Shown here: positions 12,001 to 40,871 of the stretch, piece after piece
Position numbering within the stretch: the first letter of the stretch is position 1
Layout of the letters: every line of letters begins with the position of its first letter
Assembly (NCBI RefSeq): GCF_000337775.1
Contig: NZ_AOLQ01000007.1
Coordinates: 124,001 to 188,000 of the forward strand
Direction of reading: 5' to 3'
Source of the DNA: Haloarcula vallismortis ATCC 29715
Lineage (GTDB): Archaea; Halobacteriota; Halobacteria; Halobacteriales; Haloarculaceae
Length of the DNA: 64,000 nucleotides
Translations under genes and position numbers: made by a program
Notes under the pieces: model-generated
Database searches by the model: none
What the model was told of the DNA's origin: nothing
The model's input: the letters and a program-made list of their open reading frames with translations, nothing else

Positions 12001-14567
12001 GCCAGGAACACGAACACGGGCTACCGCCCAAATCATCTGTCAGCCGGTGGTTTCTCACGACCAATCACAAGGACATCGGCGTCCTGTATCTGATTACCGC
12101 GCTGTTTTTCCTCGTCTTCGGCGGCGTCCTCGCCCTGCTGTTCCGTCTCGAACTGATCTCCCCAGGCGCTGACCTGCTGGGGTCGATGGGATACAATCAG
12201 GCGGTGTCGACCCACGGCCTGCTGATGGTGTTCTGGTTCATCTCGCCGTTTGCCTTCGGCTTCGCGAACTACCTCGTCCCGCTGCAGATCGGCGCGGACG
12301 ACCTCGCCTTCCCGCGGCTGAACGCCCTGTCGTACTGGCTGTACCTGTTCTCGGGTATCCTGATGGGCGTCTCTTTCTTCCAGGGGACCACCTTCGCGGG
12401 CGGGTGGACGATGTACGCCCCGCTGAACACGCCGGCGTACATCCCCGGCGAGGGACTTGGCGCGACTTCGGTCGTCCTGGCGCTCATCATGTTCACCGCC
12501 GCCGTGACGCTGGGGTCGGTGAACTTCCTGACGACGATGTATCGCATGCGCGCCGAAGGGCTCCGGATGCGGGATATCCCCATCTTCTCGCTGTCGATCA
12601 ACCTCACCGTCTGGATGATGCTGTTCGCGTTCGCGGCCCTGCTCGCGGCGCTGATGATACTCGCCTCCGACCACATCCTCGGGACGACCTACTTCCAGTA
12701 CTCAATCGACGGGACGACGATGGCGACCGACGCGGACAATCCGGGTGCATCGCTGTTGTGGGCCCATCTGTTCTGGTTCTTCGGCCATCCGGAGGTGTAC
12801 ATCGTCTTCTTCCCCGCGTTGGGCGTGATGGCCGAGTGCTTCCAGACCTTCACCGGCCGGCGGCTGGTCGGCCGTAAGTGGTTCATCATCTCGATGGTGC
12901 TGGTGGCGCTCCAGAGCTTCGTCGTCTGGATGCACCACATGTTCCTGACCGGCATCAACCTCCCCATCAAGACCATCTTCATGGCGACGACCATCGGGAT
13001 ATCGCTGCCCTTCGACCTGATGGTGTTCTCACTCATCTACACGATGGCGAAGGGGCGAGTCCGGTTTACCACGCCGTTCCTGTTCTCGCTGGGCGCGCTC
13101 ATCCTGTTCATCATCGGCGGCATCACCGGCGTGTTCCTCGGCGCAATCGTGCTCGACTACCAGTTCCGCGGGACCTACTGGGTCGTCGCCCACTTCCACT
13201 ACGTGATGGTCGCGGGCGCGACAGCCCTCTTTGGCGGCCTCTACTACTGGTATCCCAAGATAACGGGGAAGATGTACAACGAGACGCTGGGGAAGATACA
13301 GTTCGGCGTCTACTTCCTCGGATTCAATCTGCTGTACTTCCCGATGTTCATCGCCTGGGAGACGCCGCGGCGAGTGTTCGTCTACCCCGACGGCCTGCAG
13401 ATCTGGCACTCGATGGCGACCGTCGGCGGGTTCATTCTCGGTGCGAGCTTCCTCCTCATGTTCTACAATCTCTTCGTGAGCCTCTGGCGCGGTGAAGACG
13501 TCGGCCCAAACCCCTGGGAGTACGCCACCTCCGCCGAGTGGGCCGTCTCCTCGCCGCCGTCGCTGGAGAACTTCCCCGGCGTGCCGAGCTACGCCACCGG
13601 CAAACTGGAGTTCCTCGACGACGAGACGGTGGCCGAGCGGACCGAACGTACGCCCGGGGCCGCAGCCCACGGCCACGCAGCGACCGACGGCGGCACCGCG
13701 ACGGACGGCGGTGCAGTAACGGCGAGAACTGCGGTGACAGCCACCGCGATGGAGACGGCCCACGAAGTCGGCGGCGAGGACCACGCCAGCCACGCCAGTT
13801 TCTGGCCGTTCCTCGTCAGCCTCGGCGGGTTCATCGCCTTCCTCGGGCTCTCGGGCGTGCGAACGGGAAGCGTGTTCTACCTGTCGATAGCGGCTGTCGG
13901 CAGCCTAACGATGTTCGGCTCGCTCGTCGGGATGACCCGCGAGCCGTTCCACGCGCCGGAGATGGCCATCGCCGAGCGATGGCCCTTCTCCGAGGTCGAG
14001 AAGATGAAACTCGGGATGTGGACGTTCCTCGCCAGCGACATCGTCCTGTTCGGGGCGTTCATCGGCTCGTATGCCTTCGTCAGAGTGGCGTACGGCTGGA
14101 CGGCCTGGCACCACGACCTCATCCCCGCCGAGCACGTGACGATGCCCGGCCTCATCAACACGTACCTGTTGCTCACGTCGAGTTTCCTCGTCGTGCTGGC
14201 GATGGTCGCCGCCGAACGGGAGAGCAAACGGGGGACCGTCGCGGCGCTGGTCGGGACGTTTGCGCTCGGCGTCGGCTTCCTCATCAACAAGGGAATCGAG
14301 TGGAACCACCTGTTCCACATCAGCACAGAGACGTTCCCGAACGGCTGGAACCTCTCGACGAACATCGCGTCGTCGACGTTCTACCTGACGACTGGGCTGC
14401 ACGGGGCTCACGTCATCATCGGGCTCATCATCTGTGCGTACATGACCGTCAGGGCCTGGAACGGGGCCTACCAGGGCGACGACAGAGCCATCGAGTACTT
14501 CGGCCTGTACTGGCACTTCGTCGACATCGTCTGGCTGTTCCTGTTCCCCCTCTTCTACATCCTCTAG
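11997..14567 (+). CDS. coxA: Fused cytochrome c oxidase subunits I and III
   Basis: The 856-residue protein joins the haem-copper catalytic subunit to subunit III. In the CoxA part, His73 (low-spin haem), GHPEVY at 263-268 (CuB ligand His264, proton-channel Glu266, cross-linked Tyr268), His313-His314 (CuB) and HFH at 399-401 (haem ligands) are intact, which marks an A-type oxidase. A flexible Ala/Gly/Thr/His linker spans about 550-600. The rest matches subunit III, with five or more helices ending in FVDIVWLFLFPLFYIL. It overlaps coxB by four bases and is followed by coxD after four bases. Confidence 0.95.
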   Translation: MSQEHEHGLPPKSSVSRWFLTTNHKDIGVLYLITALFFLVFGGVLALLFRLELISPGADLLGSMGYNQAVSTHGLLMVFWFISPFAFGFANYLVPLQIGADDLAFPRLNALSYWLYLFSGILMGVSFFQGTTFAGGWTMYAPLNTPAYIPGEGLGATSVVLALIMFTAAVTLGSVNFLTTMYRMRAEGLRMRDIPIFSLSINLTVWMMLFAFAALLAALMILASDHILGTTYFQYSIDGTTMATDADNPGASLLWAHLFWFFGHPEVYIVFFPALGVMAECFQTFTGRRLVGRKWFIISMVLVALQSFVVWMHHMFLTGINLPIKTIFMATTIGISLPFDLMVFSLIYTMAKGRVRFTTPFLFSLGALILFIIGGITGVFLGAIVLDYQFRGTYWVVAHFHYVMVAGATALFGGLYYWYPKITGKMYNETLGKIQFGVYFLGFNLLYFPMFIAWETPRRVFVYPDGLQIWHSMATVGGFILGASFLLMFYNLFVSLWRGEDVGPNPWEYATSAEWAVSSPPSLENFPGVPSYATGKLEFLDDETVAERTERTPGAAAHGHAATDGGTATDGGAVTARTAVTATAMETAHEVGGEDHASHASFWPFLVSLGGFIAFLGLSGVRTGSVFYLSIAAVGSLTMFGSLVGMTREPFHAPEMAIAERWPFSEVEKMKLGMWTFLASDIVLFGAFIGSYAFVRVAYGWTAWHHDLIPAEHVTMPGLINTYLLLTSSFLVVLAMVAAERESKRGTVAALVGTFALGVGFLINKGIEWNHLFHISTETFPNGWNLSTNIASSTFYLTTGLHGAHVIIGLIICAYMTVRAWNGAYQGDDRAIEYFGLYWHFVDIVWLFLFPLFYIL

Positions 14568-34040: not shown

Positions 34041-36140
34041 ATGCATCACCCAGGTCCGCCGCGGTTTGTCACCGTCGGCGAATCGGTCGAACTGGCACCG
34101 CGCCAGCCCGACCCCGACATGACTGCCGAGTGGCAGTTAGTCGAGCGGCCAGCGGCAAGTACGGCGACGCTCGGCGACGGTCCGGTCTGTCACCTCGAAC
34201 CAGACGCTCCGGGCGCCTACCGGGCCGAGCTAACCGCCCCTGACGGGACACACGAGCAGGTCGTCCGGGCGTTCCCGGGCGTCACCGAGACAGCACAGTT
34301 CAGCGTCACGCAAGAGGACTTCGAGCACGACGACGACACCGATGCCCTCGCTGTTGCCGACCGTGCCATCGTCATCGGGAAATTCAACGATTTCACGATG
34401 GGGACACACTGGGCTGAGCGCGAGGGCGACGAGTGGGTCATCGAGACAGACCTGCCGCCGGGAACCCACCACGCCATCTTCAGCTTCGACGGCTCCTTCG
34501 AGTCGACCGCGACCGACGAGGTCACTGTCGACGGTCCCGGCCGACCGCGGGTCGAACTCACCGGTACGACAGCAGACGGCGACCTCGTCGTCTCGGCGGA
34601 CGCCCACGCGGCTCCGTCGGGGAGCGAACCGGAAGTCGAGTTCTATCTCGACGGCCGAGACGCGCTGGAAGAGTCGGCTGTGCTCATCGACGGCGACGAA
34701 CTCCGGGTTCCACGGGAAGCACTACCCGGAACGGCCCGCATTCACGCGGTTGCCGTCGCCGAGCGCCACAGCGTCGCGGATACGCTGGTCGTGGAATGCG
34801 GCAGGGAAAGCGGGGAGACGGGCACAGGCAAGACGGGTTCCGTCTCGCGACCGGCAGACCCACCGTCTTGGGCCAGCGACGCCACCATCTACGAGATATT
34901 CGTCCGGTCGTTCGCCGGCGAAACCGTCGACACCACCTTCGAGGCCATCGAACGCCGAGTCCCCTATATCGAGTCACTGGGCGTCGACGTGGTGTGGCTC
35001 ACGCCCGTCCAGGCGAGTCCGACCCGGCACGGCTACCACATCACGGACTTCTTCGACACTGCCGCGGATCTGGGGACGCGCGAGGAATTCGAATCGCTGG
35101 TCGACCGACTCCACGACGCAGGAATCCGAGTCGTCTTCGACCTGGTAATCAACCACAGCTCGCGGGACCACCCGGCCTTCCAGCTCCACCGGGCCGGCGT
35201 CCCCGAGTACGCCGATTACTACGAGCGAATCCCGGCGTCACAGGACGTCTCCGACGTCGATTGGGCGGGGGAGGATGCCCCGGGCTACTACTTCAACTGG
35301 ACGCGGATTCCGAACCTCAACTACGACTCGCTTTCCGTCCGGCGCTGGATGCTCGACGTGGTAGACGAATGGCGCGACGTGGTCGATGGGTTCCGCTGTG
35401 ACGTGGCCTGGGGCGTACCACACGGGTTCTGGAAGGAGGCCCGGGAGCGGGTGAAAGCCGACGACCCCGGGTTCCTGCTGCTCGACGAGACGGTCCCGCG
35501 TGACGCCGCCTTCGCCGAAAACGAGTTCGACGTCCACTACGACACAGACCTGTTCGACACGCTCCGCGACATCGGAACCGGCGACGAACCGGCGTCAGCA
35601 CTGTTCGAAGCGCTTGACGCGACTGTCGAGCACGGCTACCCCGACCGCGCCGGCCACATGCGATACGTCGATAACCACGACGAGGACCGCTACATCGACG
35701 AGTGCGGGGGTGCGTCGCTACGGGCGGCTGTCGGGGCTACGTTTACGCTCCCCGGAACGCCGATGATATACGCCGGACAGGAACGGGGCGTCGAACAACA
35801 GCGCGGGACGATGCGCTGGCATGACGGCGACAACGCGCTGACCGACTTCCACCGGCGACTGGTAGCGCTGCGATCGGACCACGCCGCACTCCGCGCGCCC
35901 GGGGTGTATCCGGTGTCCCACACCGTCGAAACGGGCGATTCGGACAGAGTCGTCGCGTACGAGCGCACCGACGGCGACGAGACGCTGATAGTCGTTCTGC
36001 ACTTCGGCGACGGCACGGTGAGTGTCTCACTGGACAGTGCAGTTGGGGACACTGACCTTCTCAGCGGTAATCCGGTCGGTAGCGACGGAACGGTTGCGGT
36101 CGAAGATATCGTCGTGTTACCGGCGGCGAGCGGCCGCTGA
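34041..36140 (+). CDS. GH13 alpha-amylase family enzyme (cytoplasmic maltodextrinase-like)
   Basis: The 699-residue protein has no signal peptide. About 270 N-terminal residues of beta-rich E-set/CBM-like domains precede the catalytic barrel (WASDATIYEIFVRSFAGE onward). The catalytic triad is visible: nucleophile Asp454 in DGFRCDVAWG, acid/base Glu483 in LLLDETVPRD and Asp547 in YVDNHDEDR. It likely hydrolyses maltodextrins, cyclodextrins or related glucans after import. It diverges from malEFG and is followed by malK. Neopullulanase or trehalose-forming activity cannot be excluded. Confidence 0.88.
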   Translation: MHHPGPPRFVTVGESVELAPRQPDPDMTAEWQLVERPAASTATLGDGPVCHLEPDAPGAYRAELTAPDGTHEQVVRAFPGVTETAQFSVTQEDFEHDDDTDALAVADRAIVIGKFNDFTMGTHWAEREGDEWVIETDLPPGTHHAIFSFDGSFESTATDEVTVDGPGRPRVELTGTTADGDLVVSADAHAAPSGSEPEVEFYLDGRDALEESAVLIDGDELRVPREALPGTARIHAVAVAERHSVADTLVVECGRESGETGTGKTGSVSRPADPPSWASDATIYEIFVRSFAGETVDTTFEAIERRVPYIESLGVDVVWLTPVQASPTRHGYHITDFFDTAADLGTREEFESLVDRLHDAGIRVVFDLVINHSSRDHPAFQLHRAGVPEYADYYERIPASQDVSDVDWAGEDAPGYYFNWTRIPNLNYDSLSVRRWMLDVVDEWRDVVDGFRCDVAWGVPHGFWKEARERVKADDPGFLLLDETVPRDAAFAENEFDVHYDTDLFDTLRDIGTGDEPASALFEALDATVEHGYPDRAGHMRYVDNHDEDRYIDECGGASLRAAVGATFTLPGTPMIYAGQERGVEQQRGTMRWHDGDNALTDFHRRLVALRSDHAALRAPGVYPVSHTVETGDSDRVVAYERTDGDETLIVVLHFGDGTVSVSLDSAVGDTDLLSGNPVGSDGTVAVEDIVVLPAASGR

Positions 36141-36191
36141 CAGCGGCCGGTCCCACACCCGCATCGGCCCGCTAGAACTTCTATGAAAAAT

Positions 36192-36215
36192 CCCATCAAA
36201 CTTATTAGCGATGGG
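36192..36215 (+). promoter_or_regulatory. malK promoter: TATA box inside CCCATC/GATGGG inverted repeat
   Basis: CTTATTA (36201-36207) is centred 28 bases before ATG 36232, a leaderless spacing. Perfect 6-base arms CCCATC (36192-36197) and GATGGG (36210-36215) bracket it symmetrically. A dimeric regulator bound here would mask the TATA box; TrmB at 39816 is the obvious candidate, but the link is inferred. Confidence 0.5.
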
Positions 36216-36231
36216 TGTGAGACTCTGTGTA

Positions 36232-37398
36232 ATGGCGAGTCTCGAACTAGACGGTCTCCGCAAGGAGTTCGACGGTGGCTCCATCGTGGCGGTCGACGAC
36301 ATCGACCTGTCCATCAACGATGGAGAGTTCGTAACGGTCGTCGGCCCCTCGGGGTGTGGGAAGTCGACGACACTGCGGATGATTGCCGGCCTCGAACGAC
36401 CGACGAGCGGCCGTATCCGCATCGGCGACGAGGACGTGACGGATGTCCACGCCCGCAAGCGCGACGTGGCGATGGTGTTTCAGAACTACGCGCTGTACCC
36501 GCACAAGTCCATCCGGCAGAACATGGCGTTCGGTCTTCGGATGAGTACGGACCTCTCAAAAGCGGAACGGCAGGAGCGAGTCACTGAGACGGCCGAGATG
36601 ATGGGCATCGGCGACCTGCTTGATGACACGCCGGACCAGCTCTCCGGCGGACAGAAGCAGCGAGTCGCGCTCGGGCGCGCTATCGTCCGGGAGCCGGACG
36701 TGTTCCTCTTCGACGAGCCGCTCAGCAACCTCGACGCGAAGCTCCGGACGACGATGCGGACGGAGATACAGCGCCTGCAAGAAGAACTCGGAATCACGGC
36801 CGTCTACGTCACCCACGACCAGGAGGAAGCTATGACGATGGGCGACCGCATCGTCATCCTCAACGACGGAAAACTCCAGCAGGCCGGCCAGCCAAAGACG
36901 GTGTACGAGAACCCGACGAACCAGTTCGTCGGCGGCTTCGTCGGCTCACCCTCGATGAATTTCCTCGACGTGACCGCGGAGCCAGTCGGCGACGGCGTGC
37001 GCCTCACCGGCGTGAACAATGAGTTCGCGTATGACCTCACGGGCGGCCGTGCCGGTTCGTTCGGAGATATCCAGCGCGGGTCGTACGTGCTGGGTGTCCG
37101 ACCGGAACACGTTTCGGTCAGCAGTGGTGGCGAACAGAATGCCGTCCCGGCGACAGTCGACGTGCTCGAACCCATCGGCAGCGACAATTACCTCTATCTC
37201 GATCTGGGCGGATCGAAAACCGGGTTCGAGGGCGACAGTGCACCGGATTTCATCGCCAGAGTGAGCACCGACGTGGAGCCGGCCATCGGCGAGCAAGTTC
37301 GTGTGTCGTTCGACGAATCCGCCGTCCACCTGTTCGACCCGGAGACCGGCGAGGCAGTTACGGCCGGCGAGGACGCGCCCGTTGCAACGCCACAGTAG
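36232..37398 (+). CDS. malK: ABC transporter ATPase, MalK/UgpC type
   Basis: The 388-residue ATPase has Walker [12 protein letters not shown]-loop [11 protein letters not shown], signature [16 protein letters not shown], Walker [13 protein letters not shown] and the switch His in [10 protein letters not shown]. It ends with a C-terminal TOBE/MOP regulatory domain from about residue 240, typical of sugar importers. It should power malEFG, although the genes are split across the divergent amylase. The start ATG 36232 is fixed by the TATA spacing; an earlier ATG 36211 lies inside the inverted repeat. One such ATPase can serve several sugar importers. Confidence 0.92.
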
Positions 37399-37537
37399 GG
37401 CCATAGCCAGTGACTCACGGTCAGGCGTAGTCGCTGTTTTCGACTCGTTATAGACCGCCTACGGCCATCCACGACGTTGTCCACCGTCAAGCATCCCGGT
37501 CTATCTAAAACGGTTACTCGCAGGCGCCCGGTTACTC

Positions 37538-37617
37538 ATACTGTTGGACGTAACTTCGTGAAGATCTTCGCTACTCCGGGGTGGCGAAGTTCTTGAAAGG
37601 CTTACGTCCGACAGTAT
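37538..37617. repeat. 80-base near-palindromic hairpin between convergent genes
   Basis: The outer arms ATACTGTTGGACGTAA (37538-37553) and TTACGTCCGACAGTAT (37602-37617) are complementary at 15 of 16 bases. The interior is itself an imperfect palindrome (GAAGATCTTCGCTAC against the GGCGAAGTTCTT side, meeting at CCGG near the centre). The whole folds into one long hairpin. It ends eight bases before the glucoamylase stop and lies 140 bases after malK, so it could be a bidirectional terminator or a miniature (PATE/MITE-like) element. Confidence 0.7.
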
Positions 37618-37624
37618 CAGCAGT

Positions 37625-39643
37625 TTACTCGCGGACGCTCAGCGGCTCGGCAGTGAGCTCCCCGGTGTCAGCGAGGTGGGCCACAGTTGCCAGCCGGAGC
37701 GCGTGGGGCCAGCCGAGCGGCGTGCCACAGTCCGGCGTCCCGTCGTCGAACAGTTGCTCGGGGAGATAGCCGCTGGACTGGACGAGCGAGCCACCGGGAA
37801 GAATCTCGTCCAGCAGATCACGGGACCGGGCGTAGGCCGCCGCCGCCCGGCTGTCGTCGGCAGCACGTAGAAGCGCACCCAGTTGAGCGGCGCTGTTTGC
37901 GCCCCATGCCGTCGAGACGGTCCAGATTTTTTCGCGGTCTTGCGAGCCACGCCGCCAGTCGTCGCCCTCGAAGCGGATGAGGCCGCGGATGTCGCCGGTG
38001 TCCCGTTCCAGCCCGTCGAGTGTCGTCTCGACGTGGGTCCAGAGCCGGTCGAGGGTCTTCGCCGGCAGGTCGATGCTCTTGGCGGCGACGCGACAGGCCG
38101 CAGGGAGGGCCAGCGTCGCGGAGTCCAGCCGGTCATCGATTGCGCCGTCGTGTTCGCGGAGGGCGTAGCAATCACCGGTCCAGAGTGCATCCAGCGCCGA
38201 CAGCATCGTTTTAGCCTGTGCTCGGGCGTGGTCCCGGAGCGTGGCACAGACGGGCGCGCGGGCGACGGCCGCGTAGGCGTGCAAGAAGGTCGCAGCGGTG
38301 TGCGTGAACCGGCCCTGCATGTTCTCCCATGCGTTCTGGCAAGCGATGGGGAGGCCGTCGTCGCCCAGTGTGTCGTCGATGCTCTCGACGGCGCGCCCAA
38401 GTGTGGCTTCGATTCGGTCCGAGTCTGCCGGCTCGCCGGTCCGGAGGAACGTCGCGAGGAAAGTAGCGACGCTCGCGGTCTGGTCGGCCTGATAGTCCGC
38501 GTCGGAGCCGCTTTCGAGTCGGGCGTTCGCCCAGCCCGGCGCGAGCGTCTCGTCGCCGGGCCAGACGCGGTGGGGCCAGCTCCCGTCCGGCTGCTGAGTG
38601 CGACAGTAGAATTCGGCGGAGCGCCGGTGCCAGGAATCGAGCCCGAGGTCGAACGCCGAGTCGGCTTCAAGCAGGAACGCCGAGATCTCAGCGTCGTCAC
38701 GGAACCATGTGTAGCCATAGCCGCCAGAGGTGACGTAGTACGGGTCGAAGTCCGGCGCGGCGATTCTAGCCCCGTTTGCGGCCGATAGCAGCGAGAGGAC
38801 GCGGAGGTCGGCCACGACGCTCTCGCGGCTCGGCGTGTCAGCGGGTACGACCCATCGCCGCTGTGCCTGTCCCGCTTCAAGCAGCGTCTCCGAGGTGTAG
38901 TGGTCGCTCACCAGCCGGTCGATAGTCGATAGCGCCGCGTCACGGTCGATATCGTTGGTGTCCGTCAGCAACGTCGCCAGCGTGACGCCGCCGTCGACGA
39001 ACGGCGCGGCCAGCACGACGCCGCCGGTCAGTGTCGTGTCCTCGTACCGCCGCGCCCCGGTAGCCCGAGGGAACGAAACCGGGTCGTCGTCAACGAGTTC
39101 GGGGAATCGCTCGGGAATCTGTCCACGGACGGTGTCGAGTTCGGTGGAGACGCCGGCAAAGTCGTGTTCGGACCGGTGGTAAGCCTCGATGGTGTTTCCG
39201 TGCATCAGGAGGCTCTGCTGGCCGTCCCGCCCGTCCGGTGCGAAGTCGAGGAACGCCCGCAGCGACACCCTCTCGGGCGCGTCGCCGCGGAGTTCGAACC
39301 GGGTGACGTGGGCCTGCTCGATGGTGCGGTCCGTCTGGACGACGGCCCAGTCGCCACAGTCGTGGACTGTCTCGACAACACCGGTGTCGCCGCGATATCG
39401 CTGGTCGGTGTTGGGCCCGAACCACGTCTTCGAGTCCGCCTCGACGCCGAACCGCGAGCGGTCGATACCAGTGAGCCCACACAGCGGATAGGAGTAGTCC
39501 CGCAGCGAGCCATCGCTGTCGACATGCACCAACCGGCCGTCGAGTCCGGAGAACATGCCCGTCGTAGAGCGGAACTCGCCCGGGAACTGATGGCGGCGGT
39601 CCCGCGTCCGCTTGAAGTCGTTGAGTGCCGTCCGGAGCGTCAT
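37625..39643 (-). CDS. GH15 glucoamylase/glucodextranase family enzyme
   Basis: From ATG 39643 (MTLRTALNDFKRTRDRRHQF) the 672-residue protein has an N-terminal super-beta-sandwich region (about 1-250). The GH15 alpha/alpha-barrel follows, with SGGYGYTWFRDDAEISAFLL, CRTQQPDGSWPHRVWPGDE and, near the end, STAWGANSAAQLGALLRAAD. It releases glucose from non-reducing ends of alpha-glucans. There is no signal peptide, so it is intracellular. It shares the cluster with the GH13 enzyme and importer and diverges from the TrmB regulator. The upstream extension of the frame is not coding. Confidence 0.88.
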   Translation of the reverse strand: MTLRTALNDFKRTRDRRHQFPGEFRSTTGMFSGLDGRLVHVDSDGSLRDYSYPLCGLTGIDRSRFGVEADSKTWFGPNTDQRYRGDTGVVETVHDCGDWAVVQTDRTIEQAHVTRFELRGDAPERVSLRAFLDFAPDGRDGQQSLLMHGNTIEAYHRSEHDFAGVSTELDTVRGQIPERFPELVDDDPVSFPRATGARRYEDTTLTGGVVLAAPFVDGGVTLATLLTDTNDIDRDAALSTIDRLVSDHYTSETLLEAGQAQRRWVVPADTPSRESVVADLRVLSLLSAANGARIAAPDFDPYYVTSGGYGYTWFRDDAEISAFLLEADSAFDLGLDSWHRRSAEFYCRTQQPDGSWPHRVWPGDETLAPGWANARLESGSDADYQADQTASVATFLATFLRTGEPADSDRIEATLGRAVESIDDTLGDDGLPIACQNAWENMQGRFTHTAATFLHAYAAVARAPVCATLRDHARAQAKTMLSALDALWTGDCYALREHDGAIDDRLDSATLALPAACRVAAKSIDLPAKTLDRLWTHVETTLDGLERDTGDIRGLIRFEGDDWRRGSQDREKIWTVSTAWGANSAAQLGALLRAADDSRAAAAYARSRDLLDEILPGGSLVQSSGYLPEQLFDDGTPDCGTPLGWPHALRLATVAHLADTGELTAEPLSVRE

Positions 39644-39652
39644 TGGAGAGAG

Positions 39653-39683
39653 ACACCACTGCAGGGGATATAAAATATGGTGT
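39653..39683 (-). promoter_or_regulatory. Glucoamylase promoter: TATA box flanked by ACACCA/TGGTGT
   Basis: On the minus strand the AT-rich TATTTTATAT is about 30 bases before ATG 39643. ACACCA (39653-39658) and TGGTGT (39678-39683) form 6-base arms around it. The design resembles the malK promoter, but the arm sequences differ, so a shared regulator is not demonstrated. Confidence 0.4.
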
Positions 39684-39815
39684 AATAGTTTTTCATTCTT
39701 GTGACCGCCGGCGCGAGACGGTCGACGGTACGTCCCCCGCCGGCGGCTCCAAGGCATTTCCGGGCTACACAGCACCGAAACACAGTTATCCGCCGCCCGT
39801 ACCAGATGTGAACAG

Positions 39816-40871
39816 ATGGACGATTCGACTCTCAGGGATAGGCTGGGGCAACTGGGCCTGTCGGAGAAGGAAGTCGACACGTACCTGTCGATTCTCGGCA
39901 GCGGCGAGGCCACAGCCAGCGAAATCGCCGACGACACCGGCGTCTCCAAACGGTACGTCTACAGCATCAGCGAATCGCTCGAAGACCGCGGGTTCGTCGA
40001 GGTCAACGACCACGTCGTGCCCACGACGATACGCGCCCGGCCGCCCGAGGAAGTCATCGACGCGCTGACCGACCAACTCGAAGAGATGGGCGGGGCGCTC
40101 GACTCCCGGTACTCCGCGAGCGCGCGGGAACCCCAGCAGTTCGACGTCATCAAGTCGCGGGTGACAGTCATCAAGCGGCTCACCGAGTACATCAGGAACG
40201 CGGAGCGCGAGATTATGCTGTCGGTGCCCCAGCAGTACCTCCCGGAGATATCGGGAGAGCTAACCGCGGCCGTCGACCGCGGCGTCCTCGTGATGCTGGT
40301 CGTCAGCAGCGCCGACGGCATAGTTCCCGAGGACGTGAGCGGGCTGGCCTCTGTCACCCGGTCCTGGGACCAGCCGATGCCGATAATGCTCACCGTCGAC
40401 GCCCAGTTCGGCCTCGTCTCACCGACCGAAATGGTGATACGCACCAACTCCGACCAGCGCGCAATCGCCTTCGTCCAGCAACAGCTCGTCCCCGTGCTGT
40501 CGGGGTCGTTCCTCGGCAACTACTGGCTGATGGCCACCGAGGAAACCGTCGCCGACCCGACCACGCTCCCGGCCACCTACCACGACTTCCGTCACGCCGT
40601 GCTTCAGGCGACGCTGCACCTGCGCGCCGGCCACGACATCCACGTCTCCGCGGGCGTGCGGGCTGTACAGGCCGACGACGACACCACGACCACCATCGAG
40701 GGGACCGTCGTCGAGACGAAACAGGGGCTCGTCGAGCCGGGGACCAACTCCTACCCTATCGAACACACGCTGATCGTCGATATCGGCGACCGGACTGTCT
40801 CGCTGGGCGGCCCCGGGTCGTTCATCGAAGACTACGAGACCGACGAGGTTACGCTCTCACAGCCGGAGTAA
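39816..40871 (+). CDS. TrmB-family sugar-responsive transcription regulator
   Basis: The 351-residue protein has the TrmB winged helix-turn-helix at the N-terminus (LGLSEKEVDTYLSILGSGEA then TASEIADDTGVSKRYVYSIS). A coiled-coil segment follows, then the TrmB sugar-sensing PLD-like domain from about residue 110 (REIMLSVPQQYLPEISGEL) and a C-terminal beta domain. TrmB proteins bind promoters and release or activate on sugar binding. It diverges from glucoamylase with a 172-base shared spacer, and is the evident regulator of the whole glucan cluster. Confidence 0.9.
   Translation: MDDSTLRDRLGQLGLSEKEVDTYLSILGSGEATASEIADDTGVSKRYVYSISESLEDRGFVEVNDHVVPTTIRARPPEEVIDALTDQLEEMGGALDSRYSASAREPQQFDVIKSRVTVIKRLTEYIRNAEREIMLSVPQQYLPEISGELTAAVDRGVLVMLVVSSADGIVPEDVSGLASVTRSWDQPMPIMLTVDAQFGLVSPTEMVIRTNSDQRAIAFVQQQLVPVLSGSFLGNYWLMATEETVADPTTLPATYHDFRHAVLQATLHLRAGHDIHVSAGVRAVQADDDTTTTIEGTVVETKQGLVEPGTNSYPIEHTLIVDIGDRTVSLGGPGSFIEDYETDEVTLSQPE

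Follow-up and report, generated by a model that had tools for sequence, protein, structure and literature searches.

Within a window of 64 kb of the Haloarcula vallismortis ATCC 29715 genome (NZ_AOLQ01000007.1, forward-strand positions 124,001-188,000), which is the whole stretch of DNA analysed, a starch-utilisation cluster was found at positions 34041-39949, encoding an alpha-amylase of the MalA type, a MalK/UgpC-type ABC ATPase and a glucoamylase-type protein of family GH15. Between the last two genes lies the 80-base palindrome (37538-37617) that a first-pass annotation had described, whose letters were confirmed. On recount, its outer arms matched at 15 of 16 bases, as had been claimed, and its interior was indeed self-complementary, with 30 of 40 arm positions matching ungapped across the whole palindrome. 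The best 80-base stretch elsewhere in the window reached 13 of 16 and 26 of 40 (shifts of up to five bases being excluded), while 40 dinucleotide shuffles of the whole window gave maxima of 14 of 16 and 25 of 40, none of them equalling the palindrome. Moreover, the RNA fold predicted for positions 37520-37640 had an energy of −55.5 kcal/mol, compared to a shuffled mean of −34.8 (z = −6.0), and none of 200 shuffles was as good.

Regarding the two neighbours, the gene previously called malK does encode an ABC ATPase of the MalK/UgpC type, with OB_MalK and TOBE_2 domains, its product scoring above the cut-off of the UgpC model and below that of the MalK model. The naming of the other gene as a glucoamylase agreed with its assignment to glycosyl hydrolase family 15, glucoamylase-type, and it ends 8 bases beyond the element. 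The mobile unit was delimited to 78 bp (Table 1), as the outermost A and T of the 80 bases are part of the TCA triplets on either side; any TNA triplet has T first and A last, which lengthens the palindrome by one base on each side and accounts for the earlier count of 80.

Table 1. Coordinates of the features described in the text; positions are those of the window unless a locus is named.
Feature	Position	Strand	Basis or remark
Palindromic MITE (very probable), mobile unit TACTG...CAGTA	37539-37616		78 bp; insertion compared with empty sites; boundaries fit the 92 of 101 copies with identical triplets
Left target-duplication copy, TCA	37536-37538	+	Same as 37617-37619; single at empty sites
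Right target-duplication copy, TCA	37617-37619	+	Window sequence; empty sites
Left terminal inverted repeat TACTGTTGGACGTAA (family consensus TACTGNNGGCTGTAA)	37539-37553	+	Sequence and family alignment
Right terminal inverted repeat TACTGTCGGACGTAA	37602-37616	-	Sequence and family alignment
Inner hairpin, stem 37568-37574 / 37581-37587	37568-37587		94.8% of cells paired in the 28-sequence alignment
MalK/UgpC-type ABC ATPase gene, upstream	36211-37398	+	Domain and family models
GH15 glucoamylase-type gene, convergent	37625-39949	-	Start uncertain; codon model prefers 39643
219-bp elements at other loci	L287 2156-2374; L294 2824-3042; L309 4095-4313; L337 1143-1362

Copies in the genome and across the order

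When the own genome was searched with the window copy at the DNA level, 15 places were returned at E ≤ 10, and three of them had E < 0.01 (the window copy, C21:53051 and C69:196088). Of 60 related genomes, 27 had a match to the same query at E ≤ 0.01. A family alignment of 28 copies was then converted into a covariance model, with which a search for further genomic copies, as proposed in the first-pass annotation, gave 14 separate places in the own genome (E ≤ 0.001). In other genomes, the model produced 52 (G011), 70 (G029), 124 (G291), 148 (G034) and at least 150 (G093) rows, which count both strands, the true copies being about half of the row number. In a sample of the order, 126 of 293 genomes and 44 of 87 genera were matched, while 14 out of 246 genomes were matched in a sample of the phylum, 13 of them from the same order and the sole outsider with a weak score of 27-30 bits. 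Furthermore, 18 plasmid records matched one copy, all the organisms named being haloarchaea, and a search of 50,697 phage records with one copy (L042) gave no match. The end pattern was present in 44 stretches of the viral_contigs set, of which 42 had no partner end within 400 bp, and L200 and L201 showed a weak partner end with unequal triplets; these viral matches look like chance.

The length of the copies varied from 68 to 79 bp across 101 copies (lengths of 66-85 bp being searched), and the outer helix was paired in 97.8% of cells over the 28 aligned copies. As a separate observation, two ends (TGATAGTGACTGCTGTAA and TCATAGTGATTGCTGTAA) lie about 86 bp apart at G029:C1:229371-229456, a pair that may represent a further diverged subfamily. 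In three Haloarcula genomes (G005, G028 and G018), a copy sits between the same flanks (L022, L025 and L032), so that some copies are old enough to have been inherited across species.

Target duplications and empty sites

A total of 101 distinct copies, a few of them orthologous between species, were taken from 155 loci with no condition imposed on the flanks. Identical flanking triplets were found in 92 of them (59 TCA, 27 TGA, 3 TAA and 3 TTA), a figure slightly biased towards TSA flanks because the searches and the model bringing in the copies included flank columns, while the triplets differed in the other nine; no copy had four or more identical flanking bases. Beside the triplet, C preceded in 69 and G followed in 71 of the 101 copies, with a weaker A/T and then G/C further out, which defines the target as cTSAg, weakly extended to gACTSAGTc. 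In G029, all 29 end pairs had TGA at one end and TCA at the other, as predicted by duplication, under a pattern that requires TSA at both ends. Regarding element orientation, the left triplet was TCA in 59 and TGA in 26 of 91 oriented copies, an excess seen equally at stop codons and in non-coding DNA, suggesting a preferred orientation of insertion at the asymmetric target; the bias was not apparent in G029 when judged by eye.

The locus between the ATPase and glucoamylase-type genes was matched in 23 other genomes out of 31 in the genus, and the best 13 (L127-L139) were examined. In all 13, the flanks aligned on both sides with the element missing, and no alignment reached more than five bases into it. 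The junctions compared in six of these loci were diverged and readable only in L128, L129 and L135, as exemplified by GTGAC-CCA-GCAGT in L129 vs. GTTAC-TCA-[78 bp]-TCA-GCAGT in the window. The own genome carries another copy two bases past the stop codon of nadE. At that site, G011 and G006 carry a diverged copy with equal triplets, and a stretch of roughly equal length in G015 shows no recognisable ends. In G018, G019, G021, G027 and G028, exactly 78 bases are absent and the matches to the two flanks share exactly 3 bases, as predicted by a 78-bp insertion with a 3-bp duplication.

Overall, the family is dispersed, bears terminal repeats and 3-bp TNA duplications, and has empty sites at two loci, which bears out the mobile-element reading among those initially offered for the palindrome. 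We are highly confident that the palindrome is a MITE of 78 bp, presumably moved in trans by a transposase with a 3-bp staggered cut at cTSAg.

Placement at gene ends and alternative readings

The placement of the copies was determined with a gene caller based on codon usage, which reproduced the gene ends of the window and 14 out of 14 annotated plus-strand ends in a 20-kb test stretch. Four of the 101 copies, with less than 1 kb of flank, were dropped. Of the remaining 97, 48 lay between genes in tandem, 25 between convergent ones and 18 between divergent ones, one was inside a gene and five were at edges or overlapped gene ends. The duplicated triplet was the stop codon of the neighbouring gene in 41 of these 97 copies (39 TGA and 2 TAA). 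Control CTSAG sites at the same loci fell on 38 stop codons, 150 non-coding and 282 coding positions; outside coding DNA, the stop-codon share was 41 of 96 for the copies vs. 20% of the control sites (odds ratio of 2.9, P = 0.0001), although the loci overlap and these counts are not fully independent. The NCBI annotation of pLC1Hm-01 agreed with these calls: over the first 200 of its 224 kb there are 11 copies, of which 5 lie exactly against an annotated stop codon (those of the CDSs ending at 12940, 70886 and 150402 on the plus strand, and at 129982 and 166626 on the minus strand), and none of the 11 lay within an annotated CDS of that stretch, whose gene table may be incomplete. Two more annotated cases involve a CPBP protease gene in H. 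hispanica and nadE in H. marismortui.

GAC preceded the stop in 16 of the 41 stop-codon copies, while GAC-TGA accounted for 45 of 506 called gene ends. When the control sites outside coding DNA were divided by target length, the stop share was 38 of 188 for CTSAG, 15 of 102 for ACTSAG or CTSAGT and 0 of 9 for ACTSAGT, and as it did not rise with longer matches, the target alone does not explain the excess of stop codons in this control. This excess may reflect a target preference, given the resemblance to GAC-TGA, or selection. Selection may contribute, since a duplicated TGA keeps the gene whole and many other sites would not.

The first-pass annotation had also proposed a bidirectional terminator, and such a function, or that of a 3′-end mRNA hairpin serving two convergent genes, would fit a very stable hairpin between convergent 3′ ends. 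The arms moreover covary across the family, with 19 cells changed on both sides compared to a shuffled mean of 3.4; in the window copy both arms were changed from GGCTGTAA to GGACGTAA, as in the copies of G023 and G011. However, covariation is also expected of terminal repeats changing together, and as the arms of a mobile inverted repeat may do so, paired changes do not show an RNA function. Neither strand has a T-run after the stem, no terminator-like site was found in 37300-37800, and all 13 loci examined, out of the 23 genomes with a match, lack the hairpin between these two genes. Moreover, the copies were not concentrated between convergent genes, where 25 of 97 were placed. At stop codons, 27 antisense and 12 sense copies were counted, which matches the TCA:TGA bias also seen in non-coding copies (31:14 vs. 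27:10), so that the orientation at stop codons reflects insertion. The terminator was accordingly abandoned as the role of the hairpin, being very unlikely in our judgement, while a side effect of the element on transcripts is possible.

A gene for a structured non-coding RNA, or a binding site for nucleoid or replication proteins, maintained by selection, was judged more doubtful still. The two helices are kept in 96.9% of cells over the 28 copies and the family is found across the order, in favour of such a gene or site, but the element is present or absent between related species at two loci, the window has no above-threshold Rfam match other than tRNA, and the orthologous nadE copies in G011 and G006 have an inner stem that, by eye, seems decayed. 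Least probable of all is a REP/REPIN or IS605-derived single-strand palindrome of the PATE kind, mobilised by a Y1/HUH transposase, since palindromic, dispersed and intergenic classes of this sort are described in Haloquadratum but, according to Table 4 of PMC3119063, PATEs have no terminal inverted repeats or target duplication, whereas here the repeats are terminal and 92 of 101 copies have a 3-bp duplication.

Candidate parents, sister elements and proposed mechanism

A search of G029 and G000 with the end pattern, allowing up to two mismatches, revealed no autonomous element with the ends of the MITE. Nearly all the hits with zero or one mismatch in these two genomes paired at about 78 bp, the exceptions being G029:C3:447652, a half copy at G000:C65:111594 and a short one at G000:C38:42401-42446. 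Unpaired hits with two mismatches, counted by eye, numbered 5 in G029 and 13 in G000 vs. 5 and 8 for a reversed-pattern control. Searches by transposase were also negative for a parent with these ends, both for DDE_Tnp_1 (PF01609) in four genomes, at 30 loci among the 36 matches listed, and for the ISH3 family in five genomes, at 30 loci among the 40 matches listed. An origin as an ISH3-family derivative was rejected, as those elements had the ends CAGTAC, CAGTCGATC or CG(T/G)TACTTCCC and duplications of 5 bp, as seen at the 8 loci out of 30 whose ends could be located. Another 18 of 96 unpaired ends, many of the 96 being bacterial or viral, were inspected and had no autonomous element; by eye, the frames beside these 18 resemble host genes or more of the 108-bp elements.

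Thirteen pairs of ends with equal triplets were found 0.4-5 kb apart, among which L121 and L122 are neighbouring MITEs by position; L168, L322 and L337 were examined, L320 was partly so, and L026, L124, L232, L283 and L316 were left out. The candidate L168, where DDE_Tnp_1 stands between two such ends, was discarded as a parent, as a 1403-bp insertion sequence sits there inside a MITE copy and four other copies of it lack those ends. At this locus (G034:C1:2843050-2846760, positions 1008-2498), the insertion sequence, which encodes a DDE transposase of 458 aa and is present in five nearly identical copies in G034, lies within one of the palindromic MITEs.

Sister elements of 108 and 219 bp were found in other Halobacteria, sharing the terminal repeat TACTGNNGGCTGTA(A/C) but with a non-palindromic interior. 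Equal TNA triplets flanked 21 of 22 pairs of the 108-bp sisters, and the 219-bp form is a 108-bp sister with a nested element of 111 bp, which has the ends GACAGCCAGACGTGA and apparently a TA duplication.

Duplications of TNA or TWA are made by the IS1031 group of the IS5 family and by the eukaryotic PIF/Harbinger elements, which resemble the 78-bp family in a 3-bp duplication with T and A at its ends. To our knowledge, however, the consensus TACTGNNGGCTGTAA does not resemble the ends of either group, and no such parent was found for the family. Among bacteria, ERIC, Correia and similar palindromic MITEs (reviewed in PMC10969869) are imperfect palindromes of about 80-130 bp located between genes. 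The 78-bp family shares with them the form of an imperfect intergenic palindrome and differs in host domain, ends and target duplication.

Closer in host, the MITEs of Haloquadratum walsbyi have inverted repeats related to known transposons in the account of Dyall-Smith et al. 2011 (PMC3119063); they are likewise short and transposase-free, with terminal inverted repeats and target duplications, but have a related transposon, while none was found for the 78-bp family. The Haloquadratum SMRs of the same account (SMR-A of about 110 bp, and SMR-B including HqIRS41 of 80 bp) are similar in size and in their prominent terminal inverted repeats unrelated to a known transposon, but are described there as having no target duplication, in contrast to the 3 bp duplicated in 92 of 101 copies here. 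Compared by description only, SMR-A targets IS605/PATE palindromes (PMC3119063), while the 78-bp family targets cTSAg in intergenic DNA and stop codons. The family was classified as a MITE for its anatomy and behaviour, fitting neither the MITE nor the SMR description given in PMC3119063 completely. The literature search retrieved no description of this repeat family, which may be included among the supplementary repeats of PMC3119063 that lay outside the comparison.

In the proposed mechanism, an element too small to encode a transposase, with terminal inverted repeats of about 15 bp around a self-complementary interior, would be moved by a putative DDE-type transposase acting in trans, whose 3-bp staggered cut at cTSAg would duplicate the TNA triplet. 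Copies would survive mainly where genes are undisturbed, including exactly at stop codons, where a duplicated TGA would leave the gene end intact; in the window, the landing site would be the one 8 bases past the end of the glucoamylase gene. A bolder extension is that an order-wide palindromic MITE family (78 bp, with 108-bp sisters) owes its continued activity to a transposase not yet described that no longer has an element of its own with these ends, and that the likeness of gACTSAGTc to GAC-TGA, a gene end common in haloarchaea, makes the MITE settle in stop codons rebuilt by target duplication, a harmless landing site being built into its target specificity. This extension is put forward as an unlikely one, since longer target matches in the control were not more often on stop codons.

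The landing at stop codons and the missing parent raise two testable questions, namely which transposase is involved and whether targeting or selection is at work. What appeared as an isolated hairpin in H. vallismortis belongs to a defined family of mobile elements common in Halobacteriales. Such hairpins at haloarchaeal 3′ ends should be checked for this repeat before they are called a terminator or an RNA gene.
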